Assembly: GCA_902774155.1 (NCBI GenBank)
Contig: CACYHF010000016.1
Location: 1 to 64,000, forward strand
Reading direction: 5' to 3'
Origin: an uncultured Bacteroidia bacterium
Lineage (GTDB): Bacteria; Bacteroidota; Bacteroidia; Bacteroidales; UBA932
Length of the DNA stretch: 64,000 nt
Shown one piece after another: positions 49,562 to 63,736 of this stretch. Each line of letters opens with the position of its first letter. The first letter of the stretch is position 1. The notes beneath the pieces are model-generated. The model did no database searches and was not told the origin of the DNA. It saw nothing but the letters and a program-made list of their open reading frames with translations. Made by a program: the position numbers and the translations under genes.

Positions 49562-49565
49562 AGCG

Positions 49566-49573: not shown

Positions 49574-49605
49574 CAAATATTGTTTCGCTAATCAATACCC
49601 CAGTT

Positions 49606-49642
49606 GGTAGATTGAGAATACCGCCCTCTCTATTTAGATGAA
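49606..49642 (+). promoter_or_regulatory. Accessory-region promoter motif, copy 1
   Basis: GGTAGATT (49606-49613), 12 bp, CTCTCTAT (49626-49633), 4 bp, ATGAA (49638-49642). It lies 38 bp before the YbjN-like gene. Same blocks and spacing as five other copies. Confidence 0.75.
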
Positions 49643-49680
49643 ACGAGAACAAACACATTAACTCATTAAAAATACCGATT

Positions 49681-50142
49681 ATGGAATACACAATTTGCAA
49701 AGCCGTTGAGGCTGCTTTGAAAACGCGGGAACTACACTACACGCATGAAGATGATACTTTTGAACTCTTCATGAGTGATGACAAGGCAAACTTTAAAATC
49801 CGAGTTATCGCCGACGACGAAAGAGACATTCTTCTTATCATCGGATTCTTCCCCGTAAAGGTGTCGAAAGAGAATCTTGACAAGATGTACAAGGTCATCA
49901 ATGACATCAACTATCAAACCATTTTTGGAGGCTTCGTGATTGATTCCGAAGACGGCGAATTAACCTTCCGTCTTGTAAACAATGCTGACGATGGCGCCAT
50001 CAACGAGAAAGTTGCCACCATATGCATCTATCAGGTCGCACACTGCCTCTCGTCTCACTACGAAGAGATTATGCAGGCGATGTATGGTGGCGACAAATAC
50101 ACCTTTACCTTTGACAGGGTGGATAATCGCCCTCGCGCATAA
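49681..50142 (+). CDS. YbjN-like domain protein
   Basis: A 153-aa cytoplasmic protein without signal or membrane segment. The layout (short strand-rich N-half with DTFELFMSDDKANFKIRVIADDERDILLIIGFFPVKV, then DKMYKVINDINYQTIFGGFVID and HCLSSHYEEIMQAMYG) resembles the YbjN/type III chaperone-like fold, a domain of unclear, often stress-linked function. It is the first gene behind motif copy 1 and is followed by the GxxDG protein, RyR protein and first WG lipoprotein with gaps of 40, 15 and -4 bp, so these four form an operon. Confidence 0.65.
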   Translation: MEYTICKAVEAALKTRELHYTHEDDTFELFMSDDKANFKIRVIADDERDILLIIGFFPVKVSKENLDKMYKVINDINYQTIFGGFVIDSEDGELTFRLVNNADDGAINEKVATICIYQVAHCLSSHYEEIMQAMYGGDKYTFTFDRVDNRPRA

Positions 50143-50182
50143 TGAATTATTTAACCGCCGAAAGGCATAAAAACCAATAACC

Positions 50183-50389
50183 ATGAGTATTTTGAATAGC
50201 AACGACTACCAAAGAGGTAATGAGGACGGAAAGAAGGATGCCAGAGCCGGAAGGGACAAGGACTACTCCCGGGCCGGATTGACCCCAAAATTCGCCATCT
50301 ATGGCAATAAAGTGCTCGAAACCTACATCGAAGGTTACAATGACGGTTACAATACCGAAAAGAGGAATCAGATTTATAAAGGAGATTAG
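50183..50389 (+). CDS. Small GxxDG protein of unknown function
   Basis: A 68-aa soluble protein. Two related segments, YQRGNEDGKKDARAGRD and YIEGYNDGYNTEK, share a G-x2-DG helix-like pattern, linked by FAIYGNKVLET. I know such GxxDG repeats from small phage and plasmid proteins but cannot assign a function. Second gene of the operon. Confidence 0.7.
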   Translation: MSILNSNDYQRGNEDGKKDARAGRDKDYSRAGLTPKFAIYGNKVLETYIEGYNDGYNTEKRNQIYKGD

Positions 50390-50404
50390 AACACGATTGC
50401 AACC

Positions 50405-50701
50405 ATGAATGAAACTTACATCCCGAATCCCGTGGACACATCCGATATTTGTCTTCCTGAAGAACTCCAGCCATTATCAGAAGCCCTCGCCAAAAACACA
50501 CACGATATCTGGGCGCGCGCCAGAATGAGGGAAGGCTGGACCTGGGGGCCTGTCAGGGATGACCGACTAAGGAAACATCCGGATCTCGTACCCTATGAAG
50601 ACCTACCCGATACGGAGAAAGAGTACGATCGCCTCACCTCGGCCGAAACCCTCAAATTTATCATCAAACTCGGATACAAAATTCTGAACCATTGCGTATG
50701 A
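50405..50701 (+). CDS. Stand-alone RyR-domain protein
   Basis: This 98-aa protein is almost entirely one RyR domain: YIPNPVDTSDICLPEELQPLSEALAKNTHDIWARARMREGW, followed by LVPYEDLP, TEKEYDR and LKFIIKLGYKIL. RyR domains, named after ryanodine receptors, also occur in bacteria, where their ligand is unknown. A second RyR domain occurs in the peptidase-like protein at 56821-57921. Its stop overlaps the ATG of the next gene (ATGA). Confidence 0.88.
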   Translation: MNETYIPNPVDTSDICLPEELQPLSEALAKNTHDIWARARMREGWTWGPVRDDRLRKHPDLVPYEDLPDTEKEYDRLTSAETLKFIIKLGYKILNHCV

Positions 50702-51576
50702 AAACCTGTTTTTCTTTTATCCTTTTTCTTTCGGCATTTGCTGTTTCCTGCAGCAGAGTACCCGAAGCGCCTATTCCTGGAGAGCCTGGTTACTATGAGT
50801 GTTCTGACTGTATGGAACTCATTCGCGGTCCTTTTCTCCGCGTAGTTCCTTCTGGAGATGGGAACGTGAGCGTATGGCACACCGGGACAAAAAAATGCAT
50901 CCTTGCGGACATCAGCCCCGAGTGGGACAAGATTTCCGCGGATCAGGGACCCGACATTCTCTTCCGCGGAAAGGATGGGAAGTACGGTTTTTTCGATTCC
51001 CTGAACGGGGAACTGATTATCCCACCTGTACACCGCCGTGCATGGCCTTTCAATGAGGGCCTTTGTGCCGTGGAGGACAACGGGGAGGTCCGCTTCCTGG
51101 ACGAGCGGGGAGAGCCTGTGTTCGGGAACCGCGTCTTCCCCTATTACGGCCATCCGCTGGATTATTTCGTCTTCCGGAACGGAGGATGTCCGGTCCCTGA
51201 CAAGAATCTCAAATGCGGAGTAATCAACAAGGATGGTAAATGGATTATCCCACCTGAATACAAGGACATTGTGTATCTTGACGATTGCATCCTCGCACTC
51301 GGCGAAGGAAGACGCATCCAATACGGTTTCGATGGAAAGGTGACGAACCCTTTTGTCGTGGACGGAGTCTGTCCCATTCTGTTCAAGAATAAAGAGACCG
51401 GCCTGTTCCTTTATGAAGTGGAGGAGCGGTATGGCTTGATGGACGGAGAAGGTGCGCCTTTGACGGCCGCTCTCTACCGGGGAATCGAGCCCATTTCAGA
51501 AACCCTTCTCCAAGCCTGGCTTGCAGACGAGTTCTCTCGCGTCATCCTGGACAGAAAAGGAAAAATTCATTATTAG
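50698..51576 (+). CDS. WG-repeat lipoprotein (copy 1)
   Basis: The start at 50698 (MKTCFSFILFLSAFAVSC) gives 292 aa with a lipobox. The body has WG/KWG-type repeats (GKYGFFDSLNGELIIPPVHRR, GEVRFLDERGEPVF, KCGVINKDGKWIIPPEY, RYGLMDGEGAPLTAALYRG). These repeats probably form a beta-propeller-like or solenoid binding surface. It is a paralogue of the lipoprotein at 51711-52625 over the whole length, and the same repeats recur in the TIR protein at 59053. Fourth gene of the first operon. Confidence 0.87.
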   Translation: MKTCFSFILFLSAFAVSCSRVPEAPIPGEPGYYECSDCMELIRGPFLRVVPSGDGNVSVWHTGTKKCILADISPEWDKISADQGPDILFRGKDGKYGFFDSLNGELIIPPVHRRAWPFNEGLCAVEDNGEVRFLDERGEPVFGNRVFPYYGHPLDYFVFRNGGCPVPDKNLKCGVINKDGKWIIPPEYKDIVYLDDCILALGEGRRIQYGFDGKVTNPFVVDGVCPILFKNKETGLFLYEVEERYGLMDGEGAPLTAALYRGIEPISETLLQAWLADEFSRVILDRKGKIHY

Positions 51577-51577
51577 T

Positions 51578-51614
51578 GGTAGATTGTTGAAATTCCTCTT
51601 TCTTTATCAGTGAG
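51578..51614 (+). promoter_or_regulatory. Accessory-region promoter motif, copy 2
   Basis: GGTAGATT (51578-51585), 12 bp, CTTTCTTT (51598-51605), 4 bp, GTGAG (51610-51614). It begins 1 bp after the stop of WG lipoprotein 1 and leads to WG lipoprotein 2. Confidence 0.75.
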
Positions 51615-51710
51615 ACTTGAAATTAAGTCAATTTTTTCTTCCACCTCCTATTTTTGACCAGCAAGGCAGCCGTGAGGTTCCCTTGCTTACTTAAAAAAAC
51701 TTTAAAACCT

Positions 51711-52625
51711 ATGAATATGAAACACATCTTTTCTTTTCTGGCTTCAGTTTTCCTGGCCACCATGATTGCAGCTTGTAGCTGCGCCCACTACGATGAGGCC
51801 GAAGACGTCTACGAAGACGGCCTCCTCCTCAACGATGACCTCGTCGCCGTCCGCTCCTCGGACGGCAGGCTCTCCATCCGGAACACGGCCACCGGGAAGG
51901 TGACCATCAAGGACATTAACATCGACTGGACAACTCCGTCCCCCCGGGATTCGCTCGCGGTCTTCTGTTCCGATGGCAAGCGGGGATACTATAATGTTTA
52001 CACGGGCGAGATTGCCGTCCCCGCCCAGTACCGCCGGGCCTGGATCTTCTCCGAAGGGATAGCCGCGGTCCAGCGCAACGGCAACATCGGCTTCATTGAC
52101 CACCAAGGAGACGTGGTTATCGACTTCCGTTTCCCGTATCACGGCAATCCCCTTTCCTCGTTCGTCTTCAAGAATGGCCACTGTGTGGTGGCCGACCGGG
52201 AGGGTGAGTGTGGGGTCATCGACCGCTCGGGTCAGTGGATCATCCCGGCGGAATATGACTACGTGAGCGCCTACGAAGATTACGTCATCGTGACTCGCGA
52301 AGGCGTGACTCTGCAGATGGGATACGACGGCACTGTTATCAACGCATTCGTTTTGGAAGACCTCAAGGAGCTCACCTATGACGAAGAGGAGATCCACCGG
52401 ACGCGGGACGGCGACATCCAGTATGTGGAAAGGACCGTGAGTACCGGCCTGTTTGCCTATTGCATTGGAGGACGCTACGGCCTCCTAGAGGGCAAGAGCC
52501 TCAAGCGCATCACCGAGCCTCTTTACAAGAATATCTACGCTGTCTCGAAGACGATGTTCCGGGCCTACCTCCTTGACTACAACTCGGAGGTCATCCTCAA
52601 CGAGAAAGGAGAAGTAATGAAGTAA
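51711..52625 (+). CDS. WG-repeat lipoprotein (copy 2)
   Basis: The ATG at 51711 (next at 51717) gives 304 aa with signal MNMKHIFSFLASVFLATMIAAC; the upstream frame lies in the leader and is rejected. WG repeats: KRGYYNVYTGEIAVPAQYRR, GNIGFIDHQGDVVIDF, ECGVIDRSGQWIIPAEYDY, RYGLLEGKSLKRITEPLYKN. Paralogue of copy 1, with conserved anchors such as FPYxGxPLxxFVFxNG. It is followed by the WD40 protein 15 bp later and the AAA ATPase, forming the second operon. Confidence 0.87.
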   Translation: MNMKHIFSFLASVFLATMIAACSCAHYDEAEDVYEDGLLLNDDLVAVRSSDGRLSIRNTATGKVTIKDINIDWTTPSPRDSLAVFCSDGKRGYYNVYTGEIAVPAQYRRAWIFSEGIAAVQRNGNIGFIDHQGDVVIDFRFPYHGNPLSSFVFKNGHCVVADREGECGVIDRSGQWIIPAEYDYVSAYEDYVIVTREGVTLQMGYDGTVINAFVLEDLKELTYDEEEIHRTRDGDIQYVERTVSTGLFAYCIGGRYGLLEGKSLKRITEPLYKNIYAVSKTMFRAYLLDYNSEVILNEKGEVMK

Positions 52626-52640
52626 CCAAACCTGAGAGCC

Positions 52641-53693
52641 ATGAAAAAAACCAATCGTATCTGTTTTTATGTCACCCTGCTTCTCTCTTTCGTCGCAGGG
52701 GCGCTCGCCGCCGCTTACTTCTTCAACTGCCGTGAGCTCGGCCAAAAATTGCGTATCCTTGATTCCATCCCGCTCCGGAACGACCAGCGCAGGCAGTCCT
52801 TCCTAAGGGCAGAAGCCCCCATCGAGGATGCCGCCCTCATCGATGACACGACCCTTCTCTATCGGTCGGGAGCTTGCCTCCGGCTCCTGAACCTTAAGGA
52901 AACTACGCCCGAGATCGTATTCCAGGGCCATTCGCAACCTGTACAGGCGTTCCGCGTGAGTCCCGATCGACGCCAGGCCGTTTCCTCCTCTACGGACGGG
53001 ACGCTTCGCCTGTGGGATGTCCGGAGCGGGGAATGCCTCGCCGTCTCCGAGCCCGTCGACACAACGGCCCAGCCTTACTGGACCCTTCTCAACGAGATTG
53101 TCTTCCATCCTGATGGAAAGACAATTCGAACGGCCGATATGGAAGGCTTCAAGACCTGGCGGACGGACGACCTCAGCCTCCTCTCCTCCGAGGAATCCGA
53201 CATCCTTTATATGTGTAACGGACTTCTCTCCCCCGACTGGAAGACCCTATGCGTCCCTGTTCTGGATGAAGGATTTCAGGTTGTCTCCTGCAAGGATGGT
53301 GGCACATTGGAGTACATCGGCAGCAAGAGTCCCCACGCCTACAGTCCGGACGGGAAACGGGTCCTCGCTGTCAACGCAGAGAACGGCACGATGGAGATCT
53401 GGGGCATCAATCCATCGGCCGGCAAAAGATGGTCGGTCCTGTGGCTGTATAGCCCGCCTGTGCCCCTCCTGGACGCCGCCTTCTCACCGGATGGGAAACA
53501 GCTGGTCTCTGCACACGGTGACAGAACGGTCCGGATATGGAACGCCCGGAACGGTGCCGAGAGGGAGGTTCTACACTGGAAGGTTCCCTCGATAGACGGG
53601 GTCTGCTTTAGTCCTGACGGCATCCGTATAGTTGCCTGGAACGAAGCCTCGGGCGAAATCTGTACCTGGGGACCGTTCTGTTGGGGATACTGA
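52641..53693 (+). CDS. Membrane-anchored WD40-repeat protein
   Basis: A 350-aa protein with an N-terminal transmembrane segment (ICFYVTLLLSFVAGALAAAYFF, about residues 7-28) and no lipobox. WD40 repeats follow (FQGHSQPVQAFRVSPDRRQAV with DGTLRLWDVRSGECLAV; LDAAFSPDGKQLVSAHGDRTVRIWNARNG; VCFSPDGIRIVAW), enough for about one seven-bladed propeller. Probably a protein-binding platform, periplasmic if the N-terminus is inside. Located between the WG lipoprotein and the AAA ATPase in one operon. Confidence 0.85.
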   Translation: MKKTNRICFYVTLLLSFVAGALAAAYFFNCRELGQKLRILDSIPLRNDQRRQSFLRAEAPIEDAALIDDTTLLYRSGACLRLLNLKETTPEIVFQGHSQPVQAFRVSPDRRQAVSSSTDGTLRLWDVRSGECLAVSEPVDTTAQPYWTLLNEIVFHPDGKTIRTADMEGFKTWRTDDLSLLSSEESDILYMCNGLLSPDWKTLCVPVLDEGFQVVSCKDGGTLEYIGSKSPHAYSPDGKRVLAVNAENGTMEIWGINPSAGKRWSVLWLYSPPVPLLDAAFSPDGKQLVSAHGDRTVRIWNARNGAEREVLHWKVPSIDGVCFSPDGIRIVAWNEASGEICTWGPFCWGY

Positions 53694-53710
53694 ATTTTAA
53701 CCATCCTGCC

Positions 53711-55042
53711 ATGAACGAGTCTGTTTTTGGATTGTCCTCCATTCTTGACGTAATGCGGGACACCACAAAGGGAGCTGAAGCAATCGAAAAATATGAGGCC
53801 CTGTTTGGCCCCATTCACGAAGAGAACGAAAAGGATAATGTGTTCTATCAAGAAAACCTTTCGCAGTTTAACCTTCAAAAACTGGAAGAGTATGGGACAA
53901 TCCGGATGCCTGACTGCATGGAGGATGAACCTGAGGAGGTCAGGGACTTGCTTCTCCGCCTGATCATTGCATCTTTTTCATCGATATGTACATTAACCAA
54001 AAACGAGAAGGAGATTATCGTTTCCATCGCCGTCAAAAAAACGGATGATGACGGAACTGTTGAAACCATCGAGAATGACCTTGATGAGTTTTGGTTTATC
54101 CAGGTCCTCAATCTAATGAAGATTTATCTCGAGGAGCAACTTTTCATGACTGTCCTCAGGCGAGAGGACCAGGAACAATACTGGAATGATTTTCAACAGA
54201 TCAAAACCCGTTACGAGGAAAACCTCAACGCCCTTGCCCGATTGGCCGGCAAAGACCCGCAAGCAGGAGGCTTTGGGGACGTGGCCGGAATGGACAACCT
54301 CAAAGACAGCCTCAACAAACGGATTATCTGGGTATTGAAGGACAAGGAAAAGGCCGAGAAGTACCGCCTTTCTCTACCGAATGGGATGCTTCTTTATGGC
54401 CCTCCCGGCTGCGGAAAGACCTTCTTTGCCCAGAAGTTCGCTGAAGAATCCGGTTTCCACTATCTGCTTGTTAATGGTTCGGATCTCGGGAGCATCTATG
54501 TGCACGGGACACAGGGGAAAATCGCCGAGCTTTTTAAAAAAGCCGAACAAGATGCACCGACCGTTATCTGTTTTGATGAATTTGACTCTTTTGTCCCTGC
54601 AAGGGGATCTGATTCGGCTTCCCAACGGGAAGATGAGGTGAACGAGTTCCTCTCACAGTTAAATAATTGCGCAAAGAGAGGAATCTTTGTCATCGGCACC
54701 ACCAACCGGATGGACATGATTGATCCGGCCGTCTTGCGCAAGGGGCGTATGGATATAAAAGTGGAGATTCCCGCCCCTGATGTCGAGACCAGGAAAAAGA
54801 TGTTTGCGCTGCATCTGAAAGGGCGCCCCCAGGAAGAAGACATCGACCTCGGATGTCTTGCCGACCTTACGGAAGGCTATGCATCCTCGGATATAGCTTA
54901 TATCGTGAATGAGGCGGCCATCGCAGCGGCCCTGGCCGATGAACTCATTTCAACCAGTCATTTGGAGGAAGCCGTAAAGGCCAACCCTTCTTCACTGGCG
55001 CCCCTTTTGAGCACACGAAAAATTGGATTCAATTCCACATAA
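53711..55042 (+). CDS. AAA+ ATPase, FtsH/CDC48-like
   Basis: I take the ATG at 53711 (443 aa); a TTG 30 bp upstream lies inside the WD40 gene. An N-terminal domain of about 180 aa (unrecognised, acidic and helical) precedes one AAA module: GDVAGMDNLKDSL, Walker A GPPGCGKT, pore-region YVHGTQGKI, Walker B VICFDEFDSF, sensor 1 GTTNRMD, and the Arg-finger pair LRKGRMD. A single module without a protease domain suggests a remodelling or unfolding role, with the N-domain choosing the substrate. Last gene of the second operon. Confidence 0.92.
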   Translation: MNESVFGLSSILDVMRDTTKGAEAIEKYEALFGPIHEENEKDNVFYQENLSQFNLQKLEEYGTIRMPDCMEDEPEEVRDLLLRLIIASFSSICTLTKNEKEIIVSIAVKKTDDDGTVETIENDLDEFWFIQVLNLMKIYLEEQLFMTVLRREDQEQYWNDFQQIKTRYEENLNALARLAGKDPQAGGFGDVAGMDNLKDSLNKRIIWVLKDKEKAEKYRLSLPNGMLLYGPPGCGKTFFAQKFAEESGFHYLLVNGSDLGSIYVHGTQGKIAELFKKAEQDAPTVICFDEFDSFVPARGSDSASQREDEVNEFLSQLNNCAKRGIFVIGTTNRMDMIDPAVLRKGRMDIKVEIPAPDVETRKKMFALHLKGRPQEEDIDLGCLADLTEGYASSDIAYIVNEAAIAAALADELISTSHLEEAVKANPSSLAPLLSTRKIGFNST

Positions 55043-55057
55043 TTTTTTGCAACAGTT

Positions 55058-55094
55058 GGTAGATTGTATTGATTACCCTTTCTATTAAGATGAA
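55058..55094 (+). promoter_or_regulatory. Accessory-region promoter motif, copy 3
   Basis: GGTAGATT (55058-55065), 12 bp, CTTTCTAT (55078-55085), 4 bp, ATGAA (55090-55094). Leads to the 24-aa acidic ORF and a strong terminator. Confidence 0.78.
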
Positions 55095-55150
55095 GGCCAA
55101 CAGAAACAAAGGCCATCAGGTTTATGTTTAACATTTAAATAAATTCAGCC

Positions 55151-55225
55151 ATGTCTTATTTTGATCCTGAAAACGATCCGATCGACAACGATCCTGGAAC
55201 GGGCGAATCCTCCGGCGAGGAATAG
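55151..55225 (+). CDS. Very small acidic ORF (24 aa)
   Basis: An ATG-to-TAG frame of 24 codons begins MSYFDPENDPIDNDPG and ends in an acidic tail; no basic residue is present. It is the only ORF of this size between motif copy 3 and the terminator at 55261-55300, so this unit makes a transcript of about 210 nt whose product is either this peptide or the RNA itself. No family is recognised. Confidence 0.4.
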   Translation: MSYFDPENDPIDNDPGTGESSGEE

Positions 55226-55260
55226 CACTACGGTTTTTTCTTTTGCCTCTTTTTGTTTTG

Positions 55261-55300
55261 TTCAAAGAAACGGGGTGATGACCTGCCCCGTTTCTTTGAA
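55261..55300 (+). terminator. Strong terminator of the 24-aa ORF transcript
   Basis: TTCAAAGAAACGGGG (55261-55275) and CCCCGTTTCTTTGAA (55286-55300) form a perfect 15-bp stem with a 10-nt loop. A T-rich tract lies before it and GTCAAAAAAA after it, so it can act on both strands. Confidence 0.75.
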
Positions 55301-55341
55301 GTCAAAAAAATCATGGCATCTGAAAATTTTTCAGTAAAACT

Positions 55342-55378
55342 GGTAGATTTCACCAACTGCGCTTTCTTTACATATGAA
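55342..55378 (+). promoter_or_regulatory. Accessory-region promoter motif, copy 4
   Basis: GGTAGATT (55342-55349), 12 bp, CTTTCTTT (55362-55369), 4 bp, ATGAA (55374-55378). It lies 24 bp before the zinc-ribbon protein gene. Confidence 0.78.
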
Positions 55379-55402
55379 CGTTTAACCTTTAATTGAAAAC
55401 AA

Positions 55403-55774
55403 ATGTTTAATGATTGTTACTGTAGAAAATGCGGTTCAGATGTTAACAACCCGCGTCTGGGACCAAGAAAAGTGTTGCAATCCGGAGGGCTTTTCTCCTC
55501 TCCTGTTTATGACTTAGGTGTGTGTACATCTCATAGTGAGTACGCAGAACAAGTATCTTTCTATTATTATCTTCATGATTTGTTTTGTCCGAAGTGTGGC
55601 TGTAAGGTAGGTGAAATGAATAAATACCACGACGGCTGTCTGGCAAGAGAATTTGGAGAGATTGCTTCAGATGATGCTGTTACACGTTATTTCCGCTATT
55701 GTTATTCCCACCCGGATGCAGAACAGAACATCTATATAGGCACCCAATACGGCTATCCCGGGAATATAGTTTAA
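55403..55774 (+). CDS. Small protein with two CxxC zinc-ribbon-like motifs
   Basis: A 123-aa soluble protein, family not recognised. CYCRKCGSD at residues 5-13 and FCPKCGCKVG near residue 61 supply a CxxC pair at each end of a possible zinc ribbon, with aromatic-rich segments between and after (VSFYYYLHDLF, RYFRYCYSHPD). It is a single-gene unit behind motif copy 4, just upstream of the sigma-like gene, which has its own ordinary promoter. Confidence 0.65.
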   Translation: MFNDCYCRKCGSDVNNPRLGPRKVLQSGGLFSSPVYDLGVCTSHSEYAEQVSFYYYLHDLFCPKCGCKVGEMNKYHDGCLAREFGEIASDDAVTRYFRYCYSHPDAEQNIYIGTQYGYPGNIV

Positions 55775-55806
55775 TTTTTCAAGTTGTAGATCTCAATAAT
55801 AAAACC

Positions 55807-55814
55807 TATATTTG
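55807..55814 (+). promoter_or_regulatory. Housekeeping-type promoter of the sigma-like gene
   Basis: TATATTTG matches TAnnTTTG with TTGT at 55784-55787 (19 bp spacing) as a weak -33; the start codon is 18 nt after the box. This is the common promoter type, unlike the GGTAGATT class nearby. Confidence 0.6.
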
Positions 55815-55831
55815 TAAAAACCACATAAAGC

Positions 55832-56824
55832 ATGAATTCTACTGAGAGAAAATTGCTGGAAGCCTTCTTGGATAAACAGAACCCTCTTCATTCAAGAGCA
55901 ACGACAATTCTTTTCTATGGCACGCAAAAGAACGGGCTCACTTGTGACAATAGTGTGTCTCGGAGCTGCAAAAAAGCAGTACGAATGTGTTTCCAGGGGA
56001 AGAATTATATGGGGGATGAGATCAAAAAACAGTTATATGACACCTTCGTTTCCCTCTTTTGGCAGCACTTGTATAACCAGTCCGAGAAGCTATTAAAAGC
56101 CGAGAACCTGGGTGCCTGGATTTTTGTTGTAGCATCGCGTTTCTGCAATAGTAACCGGGAAAAGATTAATTACATTCTAGGTATTACATCACCTGTCACT
56201 ATCGTTCCTCTGGATGTCAAATATGACAAAAACGAGGATATGGAGAATGACGTGGAGCCCCTCACACCAGAAATCTCAGACAACGATGACGATGACGGCG
56301 AACAAGCATCTGATTATTCTCTCGATGTTCCTGACGAGTCCGACGATGATTCTGAATTCTCTTATCAAGAAACAGCGCGCTTGCGGCTGGAAAGCTACTT
56401 TAAGCTTATTTTGTCTTCCGGCAAACTGTTAGATGGAGAATACTATGTCAGCCTTTTAAAAGACGCGCACATCAACATGCTTTCTAAGAAAGACCTTGCC
56501 GCCAAGTATTCACGCACGACAACAAGAATTGACAAGGATCTTCAAAATGCGCGGAGTCAACTGGTTCGGGTTGCGCTGATGGACATTCGGAAGTCCTGCA
56601 TGGCAGATTTCAAGGTCTATGGCCATCTTCTGACTCCCGTCTATCAGAAAGCTCTTTCCGACTTCTTCGCGGACAAACCATTCAACTCGACGACTGTCGT
56701 TGCAGCCTACAGAGCCTTAAGGCATTTCATCAATAACGATTATGATGAGAGGATTCATGAACAAATGAAGGATGAAAGCGAAAGGGAAAAAGTTGACGAA
56801 AAATTTAAAAAATTTGAAAAATGA
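55832..56824 (+). CDS. Divergent ECF-like sigma factor candidate
   Basis: A 330-aa soluble protein. Residues about 60-112 (LYDTFVSLFWQHLYNQSEKL...NLGAWIFVVASRFCNSNREK) read like sigma region 2 of the ECF type, where the pattern is ...AWLxxIARNxxxxxxRK. Residues about 219-250 (KKDLAAKYSRTTTRIDKDLQNARSQL) read like the region 4 helix-turn-helix. Between them lies an unusually acidic linker (about 135-180, runs of D and E), and about 75 extra residues follow. Most ECF factors are about 180-200 aa. If right, it is the obvious candidate to recognise the GGTAGATT promoters around it. The next gene overlaps its stop by 4 bp. Other HTH regulators remain possible. Confidence 0.55.
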   Translation: MNSTERKLLEAFLDKQNPLHSRATTILFYGTQKNGLTCDNSVSRSCKKAVRMCFQGKNYMGDEIKKQLYDTFVSLFWQHLYNQSEKLLKAENLGAWIFVVASRFCNSNREKINYILGITSPVTIVPLDVKYDKNEDMENDVEPLTPEISDNDDDDGEQASDYSLDVPDESDDDSEFSYQETARLRLESYFKLILSSGKLLDGEYYVSLLKDAHINMLSKKDLAAKYSRTTTRIDKDLQNARSQLVRVALMDIRKSCMADFKVYGHLLTPVYQKALSDFFADKPFNSTTVVAAYRALRHFINNDYDERIHEQMKDESEREKVDEKFKKFEK

Positions 56825-57921
56825 GCAATAATAATAACAGCGAACCCCGTTCCGATAACAGAATGGAAAGATTTCTTAACGGACAGACCTCTCCAACAGA
56901 GACATTGCGCATACTCGAAGAGGCCGCCTTTGACCCGGAAATGGAAAAAATTGCAGTCATGCATCGCCGGCTACATTATACTGAAGACCTCCTTAACGAT
57001 TATGGGCACTTCATTCCTGCGGGGAGTCTGGCAGCCGATGATGGACAGGGCTTATGTGACCTTCAGTGCGAAGCATACATTCTTCGTAAGGAAGGAATAA
57101 CAATAGATGAAGACTTGTTAGCCGAGGAATCCAAGAACAATTACTGGCTCAGAGAGGGTGCCGGCACACCGCTATATAAAATGGGCAAACTTCTGGAGAA
57201 GAAAGGGTTCTTGGTGAATCGTTGCGTTGGAGCCTCTATGGAGAAGCTTCAAGAGGATTTGAAAGATCACAGTATCATCGTCGTAGTCAACGGCGATATC
57301 TTACTGGGAAAAGAACCGGACTTTCTTTCTGAGGATTTCAATATGGAAGATAACCCCAACCATGCCATCGTAGTTATCTCCGTCGATGAGAAAAATCAGA
57401 CCATCCGGGTTTTCAATCCTGCAATAAAAGATGAATATGTAGACTACTCTTTTGATGCCTTCAAGGCTGCATGGGGAGAATCCGGCAACTATGAAGTAAT
57501 CGTTCGCAAAAAGAGATTCCCAGAGGAATATAACCCGCAGCCATACGATGTCTCACACATTCAGATAGGCGAAGATCTGGAAGATTTGGTCGAATTAATC
57601 TGCGAGAATGCCCATGATGTATGGGGGAAGGAGAAGCGTACCAGAAACCCGGAAATCGGGTATGCCCCTCTTGACTCTGAAGGAAAAGAGACTCCGGGAA
57701 AGAATCATTTTTATGTCCCGTATGAGATGCTGTCTGACGATGATAAGAAACCTGATAGGGATATGGTTGTCAATACGCTCAAACTGGTCAAGCGCTTGGG
57801 ATATCGATTTGTCAACATTAAAGGCATGTTTAAATGTCCTCACTGCGGCACAGCCATTGAACCCAGTGATAACTTCTGCCGAAATTGTGGTGAGGAACTA
57901 ACGTGGGAAACATTCCGATAG
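56821..57921 (+). CDS. C39-like peptidase, RyR domain and zinc-ribbon fusion
   Basis: This 366-aa protein has three parts. About 60-235 is a papain-like C39-type domain: DDGQGLCDLQCEAYILRKEG with candidate nucleophiles C79 or C83, then NHAIVVISVD (His) and VFNPA (Asn/Asp). About 255-325 is an RyR domain (ELICENAHDVWGKEKRTR, HFYVPYEMLSDDDK, TLKLVKRLGYRF). About 337-362 is a zinc ribbon (CPHCGTAIEPSDNFCRNCG). It probably binds or cuts a peptide bond in response to a ligand. It overlaps the sigma-like gene by 4 bp (ATGA), so it could be the sigma factor's regulator, for example by proteolysis. That link is inference. Confidence 0.72.
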   Translation: MSNNNNSEPRSDNRMERFLNGQTSPTETLRILEEAAFDPEMEKIAVMHRRLHYTEDLLNDYGHFIPAGSLAADDGQGLCDLQCEAYILRKEGITIDEDLLAEESKNNYWLREGAGTPLYKMGKLLEKKGFLVNRCVGASMEKLQEDLKDHSIIVVVNGDILLGKEPDFLSEDFNMEDNPNHAIVVISVDEKNQTIRVFNPAIKDEYVDYSFDAFKAAWGESGNYEVIVRKKRFPEEYNPQPYDVSHIQIGEDLEDLVELICENAHDVWGKEKRTRNPEIGYAPLDSEGKETPGKNHFYVPYEMLSDDDKKPDRDMVVNTLKLVKRLGYRFVNIKGMFKCPHCGTAIEPSDNFCRNCGEELTWETFR

Positions 57922-57960
57922 CTTTGTAGGGTCGGTGACATTTTACCCAAAAGGCCCCAC

Positions 57961-59046
57961 ATGCAGAAATCATCCTCACTTTACATATGTGCGGCAGCCA
58001 AAGACATCTCCCAAGCGGAGAGGCTCTCCGCGCTGCTTTCTGAGAAGACGGGGTATACGCCTGTTTGTGTTCTCTGTCCGGAGGATTATCGGCAAGGCGA
58101 GATTCCTGAGGACATCATTCGTCAGATTAAATCCTGCCATCTTTTCTTTGCCATCATCAGCCGGAACGCCCTGGATTCCTCCTGGCTCGCGGATCAAATG
58201 GAACTCGCGTCGAAAATCGACCTCCTGACAATCCCCGTCCAGGTGGATTCCTTCCGTCTGGAAGGTCGGCTTGGAATACAATTGGGAACCGCAGACTGCA
58301 TCCATATCGATAATGAGTTGCAGATGGAGAAAATGCTCTCTAATGTCTTCTCTTGGCTGAATGCTCAGAGTAGAAGCGACTCCCCCATTCTTGCCGTGGA
58401 CATGGCATTAAGTGTCAAATGGGCTTCTTGTAATCTGGGTTCGGATTTCCCCGATATTCCCGGGGATTACTATGCGTGGGGCGAGAAATCAAGCAGAAAG
58501 AGTTATGGTTACCGGGATTATCGTCTGACCAACAAGGATTATTATTCAAGAGGTGACCGAGTTTTGCAGACCAACGGACTTCCTTTCTTGAAATACAACA
58601 TGGATGGAGACGGACTCTTTGCCCTCGAGGCGATGGACGACCCCGCCACCCTATCTCTAGGCGCCCCCTGGAGACTTCCCACCCGGAATGAGTTTCAGGA
58701 ACTCCTTGACAACTGCGAGTGGCAGTGGGTAGAGAATATCGGGAGAACCCTCAATAATAATCCATCAGATGAGCCGTGCCTGAACGGGTATAGGGTCACG
58801 AGCAAGGCCAACGGAAATCATATCTTCCTCCCGGCTGCCGGGGTGAACTTTAATGAATCGGAATACGAGTCTGTCCTTATGCCCACCTTCGGACGGTATG
58901 GGGCTTACTGGGCTCGGGACCTTCGGAGTACCAAAATAGCCTCCGGTTTGCTTTTCGGCAAATCAGAAATAAAAGTGACGGCTTTCTATCGGGAAAAAGG
59001 ACTCTGTGTTCGCCCCGTTTATGATGAATCTTTGCTTGAATTATAA
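57961..59046 (+). CDS. TIR-like and FISUMP-domain fusion
   Basis: A 361-aa protein without signal peptide. Residues 1-125 are a TIR-like fold (SSLYICAAAKDISQAERLSALL, CHLFFAIISRNALDSSWLADQ). The usual catalytic Glu position after SSxxxx is Gln79, so NADase activity is doubtful. Residues about 143-357 are a FISUMP (Fibrobacter paralogous) domain: LSVKWASCNLGSD, GDYYAWGE, PWRLPTRNEFQELLDNC, GYRVTSKANGNHIFLPAAG, GLCVRPVYD. FISUMP domains are normally on secreted surface proteins; here a cytoplasmic protein is predicted. It is followed 6 bp later by a larger homologue. Confidence 0.82.
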   Translation: MQKSSSLYICAAAKDISQAERLSALLSEKTGYTPVCVLCPEDYRQGEIPEDIIRQIKSCHLFFAIISRNALDSSWLADQMELASKIDLLTIPVQVDSFRLEGRLGIQLGTADCIHIDNELQMEKMLSNVFSWLNAQSRSDSPILAVDMALSVKWASCNLGSDFPDIPGDYYAWGEKSSRKSYGYRDYRLTNKDYYSRGDRVLQTNGLPFLKYNMDGDGLFALEAMDDPATLSLGAPWRLPTRNEFQELLDNCEWQWVENIGRTLNNNPSDEPCLNGYRVTSKANGNHIFLPAAGVNFNESEYESVLMPTFGRYGAYWARDLRSTKIASGLLFGKSEIKVTAFYREKGLCVRPVYDESLLEL

Positions 59047-59052
59047 CGTTCC

Positions 59053-61518
59053 ATGAAATCCAAGGTCTTCATCAGCTATTCCAGAAAGGATCTCGATTAT
59101 GCCCGCCGGATTGTTTCGGATATCACGGACAAAACCGGCGTCATCCCCTGGATTGACCTCGAAGGAATCGAGAGCGGAAGACAATTCCTGGAAGTTATCG
59201 TTTCTGCGATTGATGCCTGTGAGATTCTTGTTTGTCTATTGAGCAGGAATTCCCTGGAATCTTCTTACGTTAGAAAAGAACTCACCTATGCTCTCCATAT
59301 CGGCAAGACTGTCTTCCTGCTAGAGACTGAAGAAGTCGAGATCCCCGACTGGCTATGGGCACTCTATGATGGGAAATACTATCTCCCGCGGGAAGAGGGG
59401 ATGATGATGGATGATATCGGCGCTTATTTGAAGCGAGAGAACTCGTCCCCCACCCCAGATATAATAAACGGTCATAAATGCGTTGATCTTGGCTTGAGTG
59501 TCCTTTGGGCCACCTGCAATATGGGCGCGGATGCCCCCTTCCTTCCCGGCGATTACTATGCATGGGGCGAAACGGAATCCAGACGCGATTCGTTTCCCCT
59601 GGAGTCTTACGCTCTCTGCGTGGAGAGAAATGGCATTCTTCGTTACACCAAATATAACGAGGACGACTCCCTTCTTAACCTCGATGAAACCCATGATGCT
59701 GCCCGGTGCTCCTGGGAAAAACCTTGGAGGATGCCCACAAGGGAAGAGATTGCCGAACTGCTGGACAATTGCGTATTCACATATATTGACGGTCCCCTTG
59801 AAGCCTTCGGAGGACAACATGTCAGAGGATGCGTGGTTACCAGCCGCATCAATCGCCGCAGTATCTTCCTGCCGCTGACGGGGTTGCAGGCGAAGTGGGG
59901 ACATAACATGGCACCCTCCGAGATGGACCTCTCATCGGGACTCTTCTGGTCGTCCACCCATTCACCCTATCGCCATGGCTGTGTCGTGGATGAAAGTGAT
60001 GCGTACATCCTGTGCTTCAACCAGGAATCGCTCGGCCTGGAAAGCGATTCGCCCCTTTGCCGCCGATACAACGGGCTATGCATCAGACCCGTTGCCGATC
60101 TGAAGTCGCCCGTCCCTGCGAAGCATAACCTTTTCTCCGACTGCACCAGAAAAATCCGAAACGGGAAAGATATCTTCATTTCATATCTTGATACAGACCA
60201 GGATGCCTTTAACGATATCGTTCGGATGATTGACCGGGAAACAGACCTCAAGGCCGTTTCCAGCAGGGTTGATGACATATACGAAGACAAAGATGATGCT
60301 ATCAAGGCGCTCAGACGCTGCCGAGTGGCTGTTTTTATTCTCTCCAAGACATCGGCTCATTCCAGCGAAATGAGAAAACGGGTGCACTATGCCCAAGAAA
60401 GAGGGAAGGTCGTCATTGCTGTGTGGACTGATCTGGAAGACCCTTCCGGGTGGGTCCTATTCGAATTGGAACCTGGTGGAATCATCCGTTCTATGGACGA
60501 CGCCCAAATGTCCCACCTGGCATCGTTACTGAAGGCTATGACGGAAATCCCGTACCCGGACATGACGCATCCCACCCTCCATCGCTCCCCCTTGGCATCT
60601 TTCAGCGAAGGGCTGGCCGCATTCTACGAAAACGGGTTGTGGGGGTTCCGGGACACATCCGGAAAGACGATTATCCGGCCTCAGTTCATCAGCGTTGGAG
60701 ACTTCCACGGCGGGTGGGCCATTGCAGGAGACTACCGCAGGTATGGTTTCATCGACACCCGGGGCCGATGGGTCTTGAGATGTGACGACTATGACAGAAT
60801 GGGAGCGTTCCACGACGGGCTTTCCTATGTCTGGCAAAATGAAAAGCGAGGTTTCATTGACAGGAAGGGGCGCATGGTAATTCCGGCCGCCTGGGATCTT
60901 GCCGAGTCCTTCTCTGAAGGAAGGGCTATGGTAACGAAGGATGGGAAGCATGGGTTTATCGACAGGACGGGTACGGTGGTCATTCCTTTTCGATACAAAC
61001 TCTCCGAAGCATTCAGTGAAGGGCTTGCCGCCGTAATGGATGAGGATGACCGTTGGGGATACATTAACAAAGAGGGCCGAACCATTATCAGGCATAAGTA
61101 CCGCAGCGCCTTTTCCTTCCGGGAGGGAAAAGCTTATGTGCTGGACGAAGAAGGGCCCCTCTTCATTGACCAAAACGGGGAACGTTGCTTCGAAACGTCG
61201 TTCATTCACCGCGTCCGGGGAAGCTATTTCCAGGATGGCCGGGCTCTGGTCACCGATCTGGAAGACGAGGACTGGTACATTGACGAAAAGGGACAATTTA
61301 TTAACAGACCTGACGGGTGCGAAGGGTTCCTTCCCTTCCGCGAAGGTCTTGCCGTTGTCGTCAGAAACGACAAGGCCGGATATATTGAAAAGAACGGCCG
61401 AATCGTCATTGACTGCATATATGACGGAGCCTGTTCCTTCCATGAAGGACTGGCGGCCGTTCGGATTGCTTCCGATTATTTCTATATTGACAGTAGTGGG
61501 AAAAGAGTCAATCCTTAG
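59053..61518 (+). CDS. TIR-FISUMP-TIR-WG multidomain protein
   Basis: An 821-aa protein without signal peptide. Order: TIR 1-125 (KVFISYSRKDLDYARRIV, SSYVRKELTYA with the catalytic Glu at E76); FISUMP about 137-352 (LSVLWATCNMGAD, GDYYAWGETES, PWRMPTREEIAELLDNC, GLCIRPV); a second TIR-like domain about 372-490 (DIFISYLDTDQDAFNDIV, HSSEMRKRVHYA with Arg where the Glu should be); WG repeats about 510-820 (YGFIDTRGRWVL, RGFIDRKGRMVIPAAWD, HGFIDRTGTVVIPFRY, WGYINKEGRTIIRHKY, AGYIEKNGRIVIDCIYD). The pairing of one intact and one degenerate TIR suggests catalysis plus scaffold. Likely NAD-linked effector with FISUMP and WG parts as sensors; function inferred. Confidence 0.85.
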   Translation: MKSKVFISYSRKDLDYARRIVSDITDKTGVIPWIDLEGIESGRQFLEVIVSAIDACEILVCLLSRNSLESSYVRKELTYALHIGKTVFLLETEEVEIPDWLWALYDGKYYLPREEGMMMDDIGAYLKRENSSPTPDIINGHKCVDLGLSVLWATCNMGADAPFLPGDYYAWGETESRRDSFPLESYALCVERNGILRYTKYNEDDSLLNLDETHDAARCSWEKPWRMPTREEIAELLDNCVFTYIDGPLEAFGGQHVRGCVVTSRINRRSIFLPLTGLQAKWGHNMAPSEMDLSSGLFWSSTHSPYRHGCVVDESDAYILCFNQESLGLESDSPLCRRYNGLCIRPVADLKSPVPAKHNLFSDCTRKIRNGKDIFISYLDTDQDAFNDIVRMIDRETDLKAVSSRVDDIYEDKDDAIKALRRCRVAVFILSKTSAHSSEMRKRVHYAQERGKVVIAVWTDLEDPSGWVLFELEPGGIIRSMDDAQMSHLASLLKAMTEIPYPDMTHPTLHRSPLASFSEGLAAFYENGLWGFRDTSGKTIIRPQFISVGDFHGGWAIAGDYRRYGFIDTRGRWVLRCDDYDRMGAFHDGLSYVWQNEKRGFIDRKGRMVIPAAWDLAESFSEGRAMVTKDGKHGFIDRTGTVVIPFRYKLSEAFSEGLAAVMDEDDRWGYINKEGRTIIRHKYRSAFSFREGKAYVLDEEGPLFIDQNGERCFETSFIHRVRGSYFQDGRALVTDLEDEDWYIDEKGQFINRPDGCEGFLPFREGLAVVVRNDKAGYIEKNGRIVIDCIYDGACSFHEGLAAVRIASDYFYIDSSGKRVNP

Positions 61519-61682
61519 TCACTTGAAGACGTTTTCTTCACTGGGCAAGTAGTAATGGCGTCGTAAGAAACGAGCCATTCATATGAATTCCCGCCCGACC
61601 CTCCAGAGGTGATCAAAACTAGCCACCAACCCGATTTGTTCTGATATCGTAGCCAATCAAGTTAATTATTTGGGGGGTAGTC

Positions 61683-61719
61683 GGTAGATTCGTCTGGTTC
61701 CTCTTTCTATAAGTGTGAA
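61683..61719 (+). promoter_or_regulatory. Accessory-region promoter motif, copy 5
   Basis: GGTAGATT (61683-61690), 12 bp, CTTTCTAT (61703-61710), 4 bp, GTGAA (61715-61719). Leads to small ORFs at 61790-62132. The 165 bp before it (61519-61682) hold no gene that I can see. Confidence 0.78.
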
Positions 61720-61789
61720 AGCAGAAAGGAAAGAAGATCTTAACTGCTTCAAACAGACAAAATGTTAAACAGTTAAAAACCAAAAGATT

Positions 61790-61930
61790 ATGGGACGTAA
61801 TTAAGATCGCGGGCACTTCGAGAGCCGCTTCGAAACCAGACATGACAACGGCAACCGCCGCTCCAGAATGGAAGACATCAGGCGCAACACGCGCGACAGC
61901 CTCTACAAAAACCTCAATCGACACAAGTAA
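61790..61930 (+). pseudogene. Small basic ORF interrupted by an in-frame TAA
   Basis: ATG GGA CGT AAT is followed by TAA at 61802-61804, but the same frame then reads on for 41 codons of a highly charged, basic sequence (DRGHFESRFETRHDNG, MEDIRRNTRDSLYKNLNRHK) to a TAA at 61928. An internal ATG (61871) could give 19 aa. Either a broken small gene, a sequencing error at the stop, or a recoded site. It sits where a first gene of the motif-5 unit would be. Confidence 0.35.
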
Positions 61931-61934
61931 CCTA

Positions 61935-62132
61935 ATGACCAAATACCGTCTGCCGGAATATTTCGCAGATGATGTAGAAAAGAGATTGGCGGCTATGATG
62001 GCCGCCATTTGTTTTATTTCCCAAACCAATAATAATTTCAAGCAGGGTTACCGGGATGTCTTCCTGTTTGTTGCTTGTTGTTATATTGGACTGCCTATCC
62101 TAGGGACAATCACCTGCTTCAAAAACATCTGA
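61935..62132 (+). CDS. Small membrane-type protein of unknown function
   Basis: The ATG at 61935 gives 65 aa: a charged N-terminus (MTKYRLPEYFADDVEKRL), then two hydrophobic stretches (AAMMAAICFIS and VFLFVACCYIGLPILGTITCF), the second long enough to span a membrane. It starts 4 bp after the basic ORF and overlaps the end of the convergent TIR-Sel1 gene by 33 bp. No family recognised. Confidence 0.45.
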   Translation: MTKYRLPEYFADDVEKRLAAMMAAICFISQTNNNFKQGYRDVFLFVACCYIGLPILGTITCFKNI

Positions 62133-63566
62133 AACATCAATCTCCAAATTGTGTTTCCTTGCATATCGGTCCAGCATGGATTTGGCCTCCACGCTTCCAT
62201 AATAAGCCGCGTACTTAAGCCAGAAGAGGGCAGAAGAAATGTCTTGTTTCGTGCCCCGATGGTAATAATAGCTTTCCCCTATAAGGAATGCCGCCTCTAT
62301 GTCCGGAGGGAAAAAAAGGCGATCCTCTTCTTTGGCAGAAAGCAGAAGATACTTGAGCGCCTTGGTGAAATCTCTCGCCACTCCTTTTCCATAATAGTAG
62401 CATTTCCCAACAACGGACCTTATCGTCCGGATGTCAGCTCCTCCCAACTCTCCACCATTCTTCTTCCACCAGTCGAACGACTTCACGGGAGTACTGTCTG
62501 GAGCGGTTTGGCCCCACTTATCCAAACCCGAACAATCGAAAGAATGGAGGAAAGCTTTCAAGGCAGCATCGAGATTGACAACCGTTCCGTATCCGTTCAG
62601 ATAGCACTCCCCTATCAGGAACCAAGTGCGGGGAGGACACGCGACCGAGTCTGTGAGGATGTTCAGCCATCGGAAAGCGTCGTCGACATCCCTGTCGACA
62701 ACGTTCCCGGTATACTTGTGCCTTGCCATCCACCATACAGCTTCCGGCAGGCCCGCTTGCGCCGCTTCCAGCATCCTTCCCAAGGCATAATCCTTGTCGA
62801 ATATCCTGTCGGGTGCGGTTCCGGCTCTTTCAATCGGTTGCCCTTGTTTTCCGAGTGACTGGTCCAACACCATGATCGCCAGCTGATACATTGACCTTAT
62901 ATCTCCAGCAGCCGACGCTATCTCGTATAGACGGGCTTCCGAGTACTTATCCCTCTTTTTTACCTTTCCATCAACGACACTCAGAGCCATCTGTTCTGTC
63001 TCAACCTGTACCCTGTAGCTGTCCCATAAAGACCGCACGTCCAACTGGATCTTTGGGAATAGAGACGCTACGACCTTGCACACGGCAACGTCCCTACCCG
63101 ATTCGTTGATCCTTATCCCTGTTATTTCCTTTCCTCCCATGCCAGCGTCCTGTCCTTTGAGTGCGAGAAGAGGGGGTGGGAAACATTGTTTATCGGGGGC
63201 CGACGAGTATGGTTCTCCTTCGATAATGAAAGGAATGATGTCTTCAGCCCTGCCGGCATCGATGAAATGCTGAACTTCATCCCCAACCCACTCGCTTTGA
63301 GCGGCGTGAGGAGAGCATATGACGACAAGTGAACGAGAGGAATCCAACCCCTCTTTAATTTTTCGAGAAAGAACTCCGCCTATAAGATCCGTCTTATCCA
63401 TGAAGATCGGGCTGATAACCTCAGGAAGCTCCGGGTGCAATCGCAAAACCTCCTGCGGAAACCGGAACTTCTCTATCCTGCGCTGAAGCCATTCGGCCCA
63501 ATCTCCATCTACATTATTGTAGCAGATGAAAGCATAATATGTATAGGGACTCACTCTCGATGACAT
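62100..63566 (-). CDS. TIR-domain protein with Sel1-like repeats
   Basis: This 488-aa protein starts MSSRVSPYTYYAFICYNNVDGDW with a TIR domain (about 9-150) that keeps the catalytic Glu (E97 in QSEWVGDEVQHF) and the DKTDL loop. Residues about 215-470 are Sel1/TPR-like repeats (YEIASAAGDIRSMYQLAIM, MLEAAQAGLPEAVWWMAR, FLIGECYLNGYGT, VVGKCYYYGKGVARDFTKALKYLLL, FLIGESYYYHRGTKQDISSALFWLKYAA). Sel1 repeats bind partner proteins. A likely NAD-cleaving effector. Transcribed against the rest of the region from a leaderless ordinary promoter. Confidence 0.88.
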   Translation of the reverse strand: MSSRVSPYTYYAFICYNNVDGDWAEWLQRRIEKFRFPQEVLRLHPELPEVISPIFMDKTDLIGGVLSRKIKEGLDSSRSLVVICSPHAAQSEWVGDEVQHFIDAGRAEDIIPFIIEGEPYSSAPDKQCFPPPLLALKGQDAGMGGKEITGIRINESGRDVAVCKVVASLFPKIQLDVRSLWDSYRVQVETEQMALSVVDGKVKKRDKYSEARLYEIASAAGDIRSMYQLAIMVLDQSLGKQGQPIERAGTAPDRIFDKDYALGRMLEAAQAGLPEAVWWMARHKYTGNVVDRDVDDAFRWLNILTDSVACPPRTWFLIGECYLNGYGTVVNLDAALKAFLHSFDCSGLDKWGQTAPDSTPVKSFDWWKKNGGELGGADIRTIRSVVGKCYYYGKGVARDFTKALKYLLLSAKEEDRLFFPPDIEAAFLIGESYYYHRGTKQDISSALFWLKYAAYYGSVEAKSMLDRYARKHNLEIDVSDVFEAGDCP

Positions 63567-63570
63567 ACTG

Positions 63571-63578
63571 CAAATATA
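63571..63578 (-). promoter_or_regulatory. -7 box of TIR-Sel1 gene (leaderless)
   Basis: Minus-strand TATATTTG ends 4 nt before the ATG at 63566, so the mRNA would begin at the start codon. Confidence 0.6.
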
Positions 63579-63637
63579 CGAAATTTTCTCGTCGGCATAT
63601 GGGATTTCGAACTCGACGATAAGATTGTATCATATTT

Positions 63638-63674
63638 GGTAGAAATGAACAGATCTGCTTTCTTTTCCTATGAA
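63638..63674 (+). promoter_or_regulatory. Accessory-region promoter motif, copy 6
   Basis: GGTAGAAA (63638-63645; two bases off GGTAGATT), 12 bp, CTTTCTTT (63658-63665), 4 bp, ATGAA (63670-63674). It lies 62 bp before the DnaE-like gene. Confidence 0.68.
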
Positions 63675-63736
63675 AGGCCAAAAATCCAAAGAGCAGATTA
63701 TCGCCGCAGCAGCATAAACCCTTTAATTTCACCTGT

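Follow-up and report, generated by a model that had tools for sequence, protein, structure and literature searches.

In a window of 64,000 nucleotides from an uncultured Bacteroidia bacterium of the order Bacteroidales (positions 1 to 64,000 of contig CACYHF010000016.1, here C16, of assembly GCA_902774155.1), we have analysed a two-block, promoter-like element, GGTAGATT-N12-CTTTCTWT-N4-RTGAA, which occurs six times in the window and seven or eight times in the genomic island that carries it. Judging from the sequence, these copies are very probably -35/-10 promoters read by a divergent sigma factor of the extracytoplasmic function (ECF) kind, encoded at 55832-56824. A dedicated sigma factor with promoters of its own is well supported by comparison with other genomes, which also places the motif and the sigma gene in a system found more widely in Bacteroidales. 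There, the gene directly after the sigma gene encodes a soluble regulator, whose parts are a helical N-terminus, a cysteine-peptidase fold of the C39 type and a RyR domain. The comparative support for this reading comes from a conserved gene pair, a fixed promoter geometry, a copy of the element inside the sigma gene of many relatives with apparent conservation at the DNA level, and recurrent target genes.

A two-block element within a genomic island

The preliminary description of this DNA had listed six copies on the + strand, and all six are present, at 49606..49642, 51578..51614, 55058..55094, 55342..55378, 61683..61719 and 63638..63674. They are less uniform than had been stated: the full 37-base consensus is exact in three of the six (55058, 55342 and 61683), and the other three deviate by one or two bases (the copy at 49606 has CTCTCTAT as its -10-like block, between the -35-like GGTAGATT and RTGAA; that at 51578 has GTGAG as its final block; that at 63638 reads GGTAGAAA, with two mismatches). 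With the 28-base two-block form and up to three mismatches, the window contains six matches, against a mean of 0.53 in shuffled sequences, none of 100 shuffles reaching at least six; as claimed earlier, the first 49 kb hold no copy. The restriction of the motif to the accessory region was confirmed by a scan of the whole genome (2,428,135 bases, 88 contigs), in which the 37-base form with up to two mismatches gave seven matches and its reversed control none. All seven are on the + strand within C16:49606-65852, the seventh copy lying at C16:65816, past the end of the window. A weak, inverted eighth copy without RTGAA is found farther past the window end, at C16:71880-71853 (-); situated at the right end of the island, it reads into the last WG gene from the 3' side. 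The 28-base form with up to two mismatches has ten genomic matches, namely the seven copies, the weak inverted copy and two sites on other contigs. With up to three mismatches there are 36 (eight in the island) versus 26 in the control, and the 28 outside the island are at background level. Over the first 80 kb of C16, all eight sites of GRTAGA..TCTWT share a single spacing, and at two of them an overlapping TCTTT allows a second spacing as well. The window motif has no match in viral contigs, and its strict exact pattern has none in other genome contigs. Among 392 other genomes of the order sample, the 37-base motif has 17 single matches, every one with two mismatches, versus 8 in the control (this control count, and that of 21 given below for 295 genomes, were summed by eye from tables). 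De novo motif finding in the window returned start-codon and coding signals.

The island is an insertion of about 22.3 kb that separates miaA and smpB; comparison of these neighbours places its in-window part at 49562..64000 and its right end near C16:71880-71908. Its G+C content is 50.0%, versus 56.2% in the left flank and 58.4% in the right flank, and the island contains all copies of the full motif. In all three same-genus genomes compared (L219, L220 and L221, labels being ours; miaA was found in 29), miaA and smpB are adjacent, divergently oriented as in the window in L219 (55 bases apart) and L220 (43 bases apart) and in tandem in L221.

The two blocks are read as -35-like and -10-like on the basis of the promoter geometry of ECF sigma factors, and the placement of RTGAA fits a predicted transcription start about seven bases past TTTCT. 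That each copy heads a transcription unit proved true in part: five of the seven precede a frame of at least 120 codons, but the copy at 55058 is followed by a frame of 24 codons and that at 61683 by a short interrupted frame which stops after four. Copy 1 stands before genes for YbjN-like, RyR and WG-repeat proteins, copy 2 before WG, WD40 and AAA genes, copy 4 before zinc-ribbon, sigma-like, RyR-C39, TIR and TIR-WG genes, and copy 6 before a DnaE-like gene. As predicted here, this promoter class with its fixed -35/-10-like spacing includes the operon of the sigma factor itself, and the sigma gene would be autoregulated via copy 4.

The sigma-like gene and its conserved partner

The gene at 55832..56824 (+) encodes a protein of 330 amino acids, which is assigned as a divergent sigma-70/ECF-like factor from synteny, from the TIGR02937 match of a relative and from a weak likeness of its structural model. 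Relatives of the RyR/C39 regulator encoded immediately downstream (56821..57921, +) were found 145 times in the genome collection, and 79 loci were kept; in the order sample, three other genomes of 295 hold such relatives. The open reading frame (ORF) of the regulator could be read in 75 of the 79 loci, four being unreadable, and in 75 of these 75 a same-strand ORF of at least 80 amino acids lies directly 5' of the regulator gene. The three of these upstream ORFs that were compared with NCBIfam all match TIGR02937 (sigma70-ECF) below its cut-off (L106, 1.6e-8; L131, 8.1e-9; L107, 1.5e-7). Locus L131 comes from an isolate, Prevotella communis E15-14. The L107 protein is of the long form and is nearest to the window protein, with 33% identity in the alignment. 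In hhalign, the long-form profile pairs with the short L131 sigma factor over 55 columns of region 4 with a probability of 86.

The model of the window protein has a mean predicted local distance difference test score (pLDDT) of 76, and its residues 121-169 form a low-confidence acidic insert that the short sigma factors do not have. When this model was searched against PDB structures, sigma factors (SigL, SigH and others) ranked first, with a best E value of 0.034, and its region 4 part compares with region 4 of SigmaE at a TMt of 0.61 (E 1.8). A search with the protein in 199 genomes of the family and 393 of the order returned, apart from the protein itself, only two weak matches (E 0.0035 and 0.0067), and none was found in plasmids or phages.

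Geometry of the element and its copy inside the sigma gene

Over the 79 loci, the relatives' form of the element, TGRTAGA-N{k}-CTCTW, matches 70 times at k = 17, 12 times at k = 19 and 0-3 times at any other spacing from 8 to 27. About half of the 70 are inside the sigma gene; outside it, the counts are 35 at a spacing of 17, 10 at 19 and 0-3 elsewhere, and six of the ten spacing-19 sites also read CTCTC at a spacing of 17.

Within the sigma gene, the exact element is found at one alignment position in 32 of 75 sequences, and in 53 of 75 when up to one mismatch is allowed, oriented toward the regulator gene. The amino acids encoded there vary (mostly M/V/L-I-D/E ... P/A/S/T-L), whereas the DNA of the blocks is kept. 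Isoleucine is encoded by ATA in 58 of 60 cases, versus 371 of 1108 elsewhere in the same genes; valine or leucine codons end in TG in 34 of 37 (984 of 2320 elsewhere), proline, serine, threonine and alanine codons are NCT in 55 of 62 (566 of 2580) and leucine is CTW in 36 of 42 (338 of 1361). Aspartate beside the -35-like block is also biased, toward GAT (36 of 37), and a control position in the spacer is free of such codon bias (18 of 48 versus 1604 of 3060). The isoleucine column is the most biased of 17 tested. The codon choice at the intragenic element points to selection on the DNA. The binomial values of this test overstate certainty because the sigma genes are related. In three genomes (G586, G722 and G721) a copy is located between the sigma and regulator genes rather than within the former, and in loci L100 and L139 the element is directly 5' of the sigma gene.

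Sites and candidate target genes in other Bacteroidales

The exact pattern TGATAGA-N17-CTCTWTA was searched in 20 system-bearing genomes, 18 of them chosen because the fetched locus has a site that is not in the sigma gene, and two (those of L101 and L106) lacking such a site. It has 37 matches in these genomes and none in the reversed control; 16 of the 20 contain a match, and 19 of the 37 sites are outside the fetched loci and unaffected by the choice of genomes. The regulon of unlinked operons that had been envisaged is not what the window genome shows, since its full-motif copies all lie in one 22 kb insertion, but it is seen in relatives, where these 19 sites lie away from the fetched sigma locus. 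In 295 genomes of the order the strict pattern occurs 16 times versus 21 in the control; in a similarly drawn sample the regulator is present in four genomes, and none of the 16 strict matches falls in those four.

The loci contain 38 sites outside the sigma gene (two of them, in L077 and L133, at the sigma position where the regulator ORF is unread; the masked count is 35). Thirty of the 38 are not in an ORF of at least 100 amino acids, versus 11.9% of random positions, and 26 of these 30 intergenic sites lie at most 165 nucleotides from the start of a same-strand ORF. Of the 19 sites that are not in the loci, 17 are followed within about 320 nucleotides by the start of an ORF of at least 60 amino acids. 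Pfam scans of 20 downstream proteins identified single-domain RyR proteins (L093, L104, L143, L100, L132, L188 and L190), WG-repeat proteins (L090, L124 and L127), DUF1232 (L146, L189 and L193) and FHA (L198), six of the 20 having no match; these proteins were taken from 35 first ORFs and partly picked by look, so the family counts are not rates. The RyR and WG classes are likewise found under the motif of the window island. Stretches with 73% and 63% identity to the L188 RyR protein, whose gene follows a site of the element, are encoded in two unannotated faecal phage records, MT837259 and MT836850.

A related element is present in other gut Bacteroidales. In G586 (locus L107) it has the form GTGGTAGA-...-CTTTCTCTA-...-GTTGTAA and stands before eight genes; the corresponding 39-base pattern with up to three mismatches has five matches in the whole genome, all on the island contig, and none in the control. 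In G722 and G721 the element reads TG(A/G)TAGA-N17-CTCTT. Exact matches to TGRTAGA-N17-CTCTT number three in G586, two in G721 and three in G722, all eight within 8 kb of the sigma gene; the pattern was derived from these islands, so that only the lack of exact matches elsewhere in the three genomes is informative. A common N17 pattern does not account for two further genomes, G700 and G661, both of which show a looser TGATATA-...-TGTC. A dispersed palindrome, TGGTAGAGACG...CGTCTCTA, is repeated in G586, G700, G661, G721 and G722 and, at one mismatch, can pass for part of the motif. Across six genomes, de novo motif finding ranked the element top only in G586; the reversed-sequence control of this analysis, which scored equally high, is invalid because mirroring preserves repeats.

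The proposed RyR/C39 regulator

The regulator encoded at 56821..57921 combines a helical N-terminus, a C39-peptidase-like fold, a RyR domain and a zinc ribbon, and is proposed here as an anti-sigma factor. Its RyR domain (PF02026) is recognised by Pfam at an E value of 2.5e-17, with 63.3 bits versus a cut-off of 27.4, whereas Peptidase_C39_2 is below cut-off at 0.075. In the structural model (mean pLDDT 87), the first 61 residues fold as three helices (10-19, 25-37 and 39-61), and Foldseek matches the model to the C39-like peptidase 3erv (8.1e-7) and to the Bacteroides thetaiotaomicron RyR protein 6uag (3.4e-5). Among 40 aligned regulators, Cys79 and His181 are each conserved in 40 and Asp/Asn199 in 37; we take these to be the catalytic positions, on the assumption that C39 peptidases use Cys/His/Asp. 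An alignment-based search for RyR/C39 proteins in viral contigs found none.

According to a 2026 preprint, 2'cADPR and 3'cADPR, which TIR proteins make as signals, are bound or cleaved by phage proteins with RyR domains, and the ligand residues of one such phage protein, RyDEP, are H75, W78, H100 and D117 (PMC13232231). The corresponding pattern of H, W+3, H+25 and D+42, mapped by spacing and without alignment to RyDEP itself, is kept in all nine of the single-domain RyR proteins compared from the loci and the window. The 40 regulators have it only in part: H and W are present in 40 of 40 and D at +42 in 34 of 40. At the third position, 20 have H, 7 have N and 7 have T; it was not placed in the other 6. 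The RyR domain of the regulator thus retains residues by which phage RyDEP binds cyclic-ADP-ribose signals.

Weighing the sigma-factor reading

A number of results count against a sigma factor with its own promoters. The preliminary description had proposed a sigma factor dedicated to a promoter class of its own, which comparison largely supports, and the gene at 55832-56824 is at the conserved sigma position, but the 330-residue window protein matches no sigma family in Pfam or NCBIfam. The three TIGR02937 matches stay below the cut-off of 42.9 bits (L106, 34.3; L131, 35.3; L107, 31.2), and in Pfam two of nine relatives match sigma region 4 below cut-off (L107, 0.0023; L085, 0.00032), the other seven having no sigma family match at all. 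The structure search gave no match at E 0.001 or better and a whole-chain template modelling score of about 0.2, and a profile search of PDB sequences placed sigma factors at E 0.1 to 0.54 with a histone among them at 0.25. As to the element, its exact window form is found only in this island, and in the 79 related loci the window motif has two matches at two mismatches versus three in the reversed control; compared with the relatives' form, its spacer is one base shorter and the entire downstream block is shifted. The window also has no exact copy within or just 3' of its sigma gene. The strict pattern of the relatives is lacking in G225, G404, G432 and four of the 20 chosen genomes; TGRTAGA-N17-CTCTT has three exact matches in G700, none of them in the island, and none in G661, and at one mismatch it does not exceed the control in any of G586, G700, G661, G721 and G722. 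ATA is also preferred in the runner-up isoleucine column of the sigma gene, with 50 of 65. Finally, it is gene order and the modelled helical N-terminus that make the regulator probably an anti-sigma factor, and no anti-sigma family is among the Pfam matches of the window regulator or the NCBIfam matches of three regulators.

We consider it improbable that the motif is instead an operator through which a DNA-binding protein activates or represses the island. Elements repeated before several operons would then appear identical, and the kinase, phosphatase and zinc-ribbon proteins of the island could control such a regulator; yet the two blocks are dissimilar and non-palindromic and stand at a fixed -35/-10-like distance, the intergenic sites of relatives keep close to same-strand ORF starts (26 of 30 within 165 nucleotides), a sigma-like gene accompanies the element in each system, and the intragenic copy reads toward the regulator. 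The remaining readings of the element are more remote. It could mark a site of recombination or insertion, as the copies at 49606 (+) and 71880 (-) are inverted and just inside the miaA and smpB ends; this is very unlikely, given inverted ends that share at most a 9-base match, remaining copies that are internal and precede genes or short frames, and relatives in which the element is at unrelated places. The conserved upstream block, the spacing peak, and an intragenic codon bias seen at both blocks and not at the spacer control position argue just as strongly against a feature of a leader RNA, a reading that would draw on the -10-like block being followed by RTGAA in the window or by an A-rich stretch in relatives. 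A different question concerns the RyR/C39 protein. Instead of an anti-sigma factor it might be a co-activator, or it might cleave the sigma factor as a processing protease, with the acidic linker as one conceivable target. We regard this as rather unlikely. It would agree with the C39 fold and its conserved Cys79, His181 and Asp/Asn199, and with the low-confidence acidic insert at 121-169 of the window sigma factor. This insert is, however, missing from the short sigma factors, and the separate regulator promoter of the relatives fits a shut-off role like that reported for SigH/RshA (PMC3489674).

Other genes of the island

The island as a whole encodes YbjN-like, RyR, WG-repeat, WD40, AAA, sigma-like, RyR/C39, TIR, TIR-Sel1, short DnaE-like, PEGA, CAP-vWA, PP2C, kinase and zinc-ribbon proteins. 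Following copy 1 on the + strand are genes for a YbjN-like protein of 153 amino acids (49681..50142; Pfam YbjN 5.4e-9), a single-domain RyR protein of 98 amino acids (50405..50701; Pfam RyR 6.1e-35) with H, W+3, H+25 and D+42 in RyDEP spacing, and a WG-repeat protein of 294 amino acids (50692..51576). Copy 2 precedes, on the same strand, a WG-repeat gene (51654..52625), the true start of which is probably more internal, as judged by eye, and genes for a WD40-repeat protein of 350 amino acids (52641..53693) and an AAA ATPase of 453 amino acids (53681..55042; Pfam AAA 9.5e-36), the ATPase part of which resembles PADLOC IetA (8.8e-29). The acidic 24-codon frame after copy 3 (55151..55225, +) is followed, by eye, by a 13-bp perfect inverted repeat without a T run; with its own motif copy, this stretch (55151-55300) may encode a peptide or a small RNA.

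Around the sigma and regulator genes, the operon behind copy 4 (+) comprises a gene for a Cys-rich protein of 123 amino acids (55403..55774; Zn_Ribbon_1 at 0.0027, below cut-off), one for a TIR domain with a weak Lcl_C/Fib_succ_major-like part (57961..59046) and one for a TIR and WG-repeat protein of 821 amino acids with TIR in two stretches (59053..61518). The frame 3' of copy 5 starts and stops at 61790..61804 (+) and is open again for some distance past this early stop (61790-62020). The TIR-Sel1 gene (62100..63566, -) has no motif copy upstream on its strand. Behind copy 6, a short DnaE-like protein of 687 amino acids is encoded from 63737 (63737..64000 in the window, to C16:65800, +); its domains are limited to PHP, Pol III alpha and finger, and the gene has a motif copy of its own. 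Genes for PEGA, CAP-vWA, PP2C, kinase, zinc-ribbon and WG proteins form one run 3' of the seventh copy (C16:65861-71783), and the kinase, PP2C and vWA genes presumably resemble the TerY-P triad.

Proposed mechanism and comparison with known systems

The regulator would keep the sigma factor inactive until a cytoplasmic signal, perhaps an ADP-ribose-type nucleotide like the products of TIR enzymes, binds its RyR domain; cleavage or release by the C39 part may follow, and the freed sigma factor would transcribe its own operon together with TIR, WG, AAA and RyR genes. In relatives, the promoter in or just past the sigma gene would end the response by raising the level of the regulator, and the signal may be bound or destroyed by single-domain RyR proteins. 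A more specific version is tentative: the system might be the transcriptional arm of a TIR/cyclic-ADP-ribose immunity, in which a RyR anti-sigma protease senses a TIR-made signal, frees the sigma factor and induces both TIR proteins and signal-quenching RyR proteins. If the proposal is true, it would tie an alternative sigma factor to RyR/TIR nucleotide signalling in gut Bacteroidales, place orphan RyR, WG and TIR proteins in a common control circuit, and provide a DNA signature for listing the regulon in other genomes. A class I anti-sigma domain is stated to accompany only 6% of Bacteroidetes ECF sigma factors (PMC7406223), which leaves room there for other modes of control. Among the matches listed, in a literature covered only partly, no paper treats this sigma/RyR system, and the ECF sigma-factor literature examined has no mention of 'RyR'.

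The TIR proteins of the island are reminiscent of Thoeris and other TIR-based defence, two of the three having weak ThsB or SAVED-TIR matches. These PADLOC matches score poorly, at 5.5e-9 and 4.5e-5 at best, and extend over no more than the TIR stretch, and the PADLOC scan of ten island proteins recognised no complete known defence system. Another parallel is found in Corynebacterium glutamicum, where a SigH-dependent promoter within sigH is reported to drive rshA (PMC3489674). There, as here, a sigma gene is followed by the gene of its regulator (a proposed one in our case), two-block promoters have their blocks 16-19 nucleotides apart, and a sigma-dependent promoter in the sigma gene drives the regulator, experimentally in that species and by sequence in the relatives studied here. 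In contrast to SigH/RshA, the regulator of the present system has C39 and RyR parts and no anti-sigma family match, and the sigma sequences are below family cut-offs. With phage RyDEP, as described in the preprint (PMC13232231), the single-domain RyR proteins share all four ligand positions in nine of nine cases; RyDEP is a phage enzyme, whereas the RyR domains described here are found in a putative transcription regulator and in its targets.

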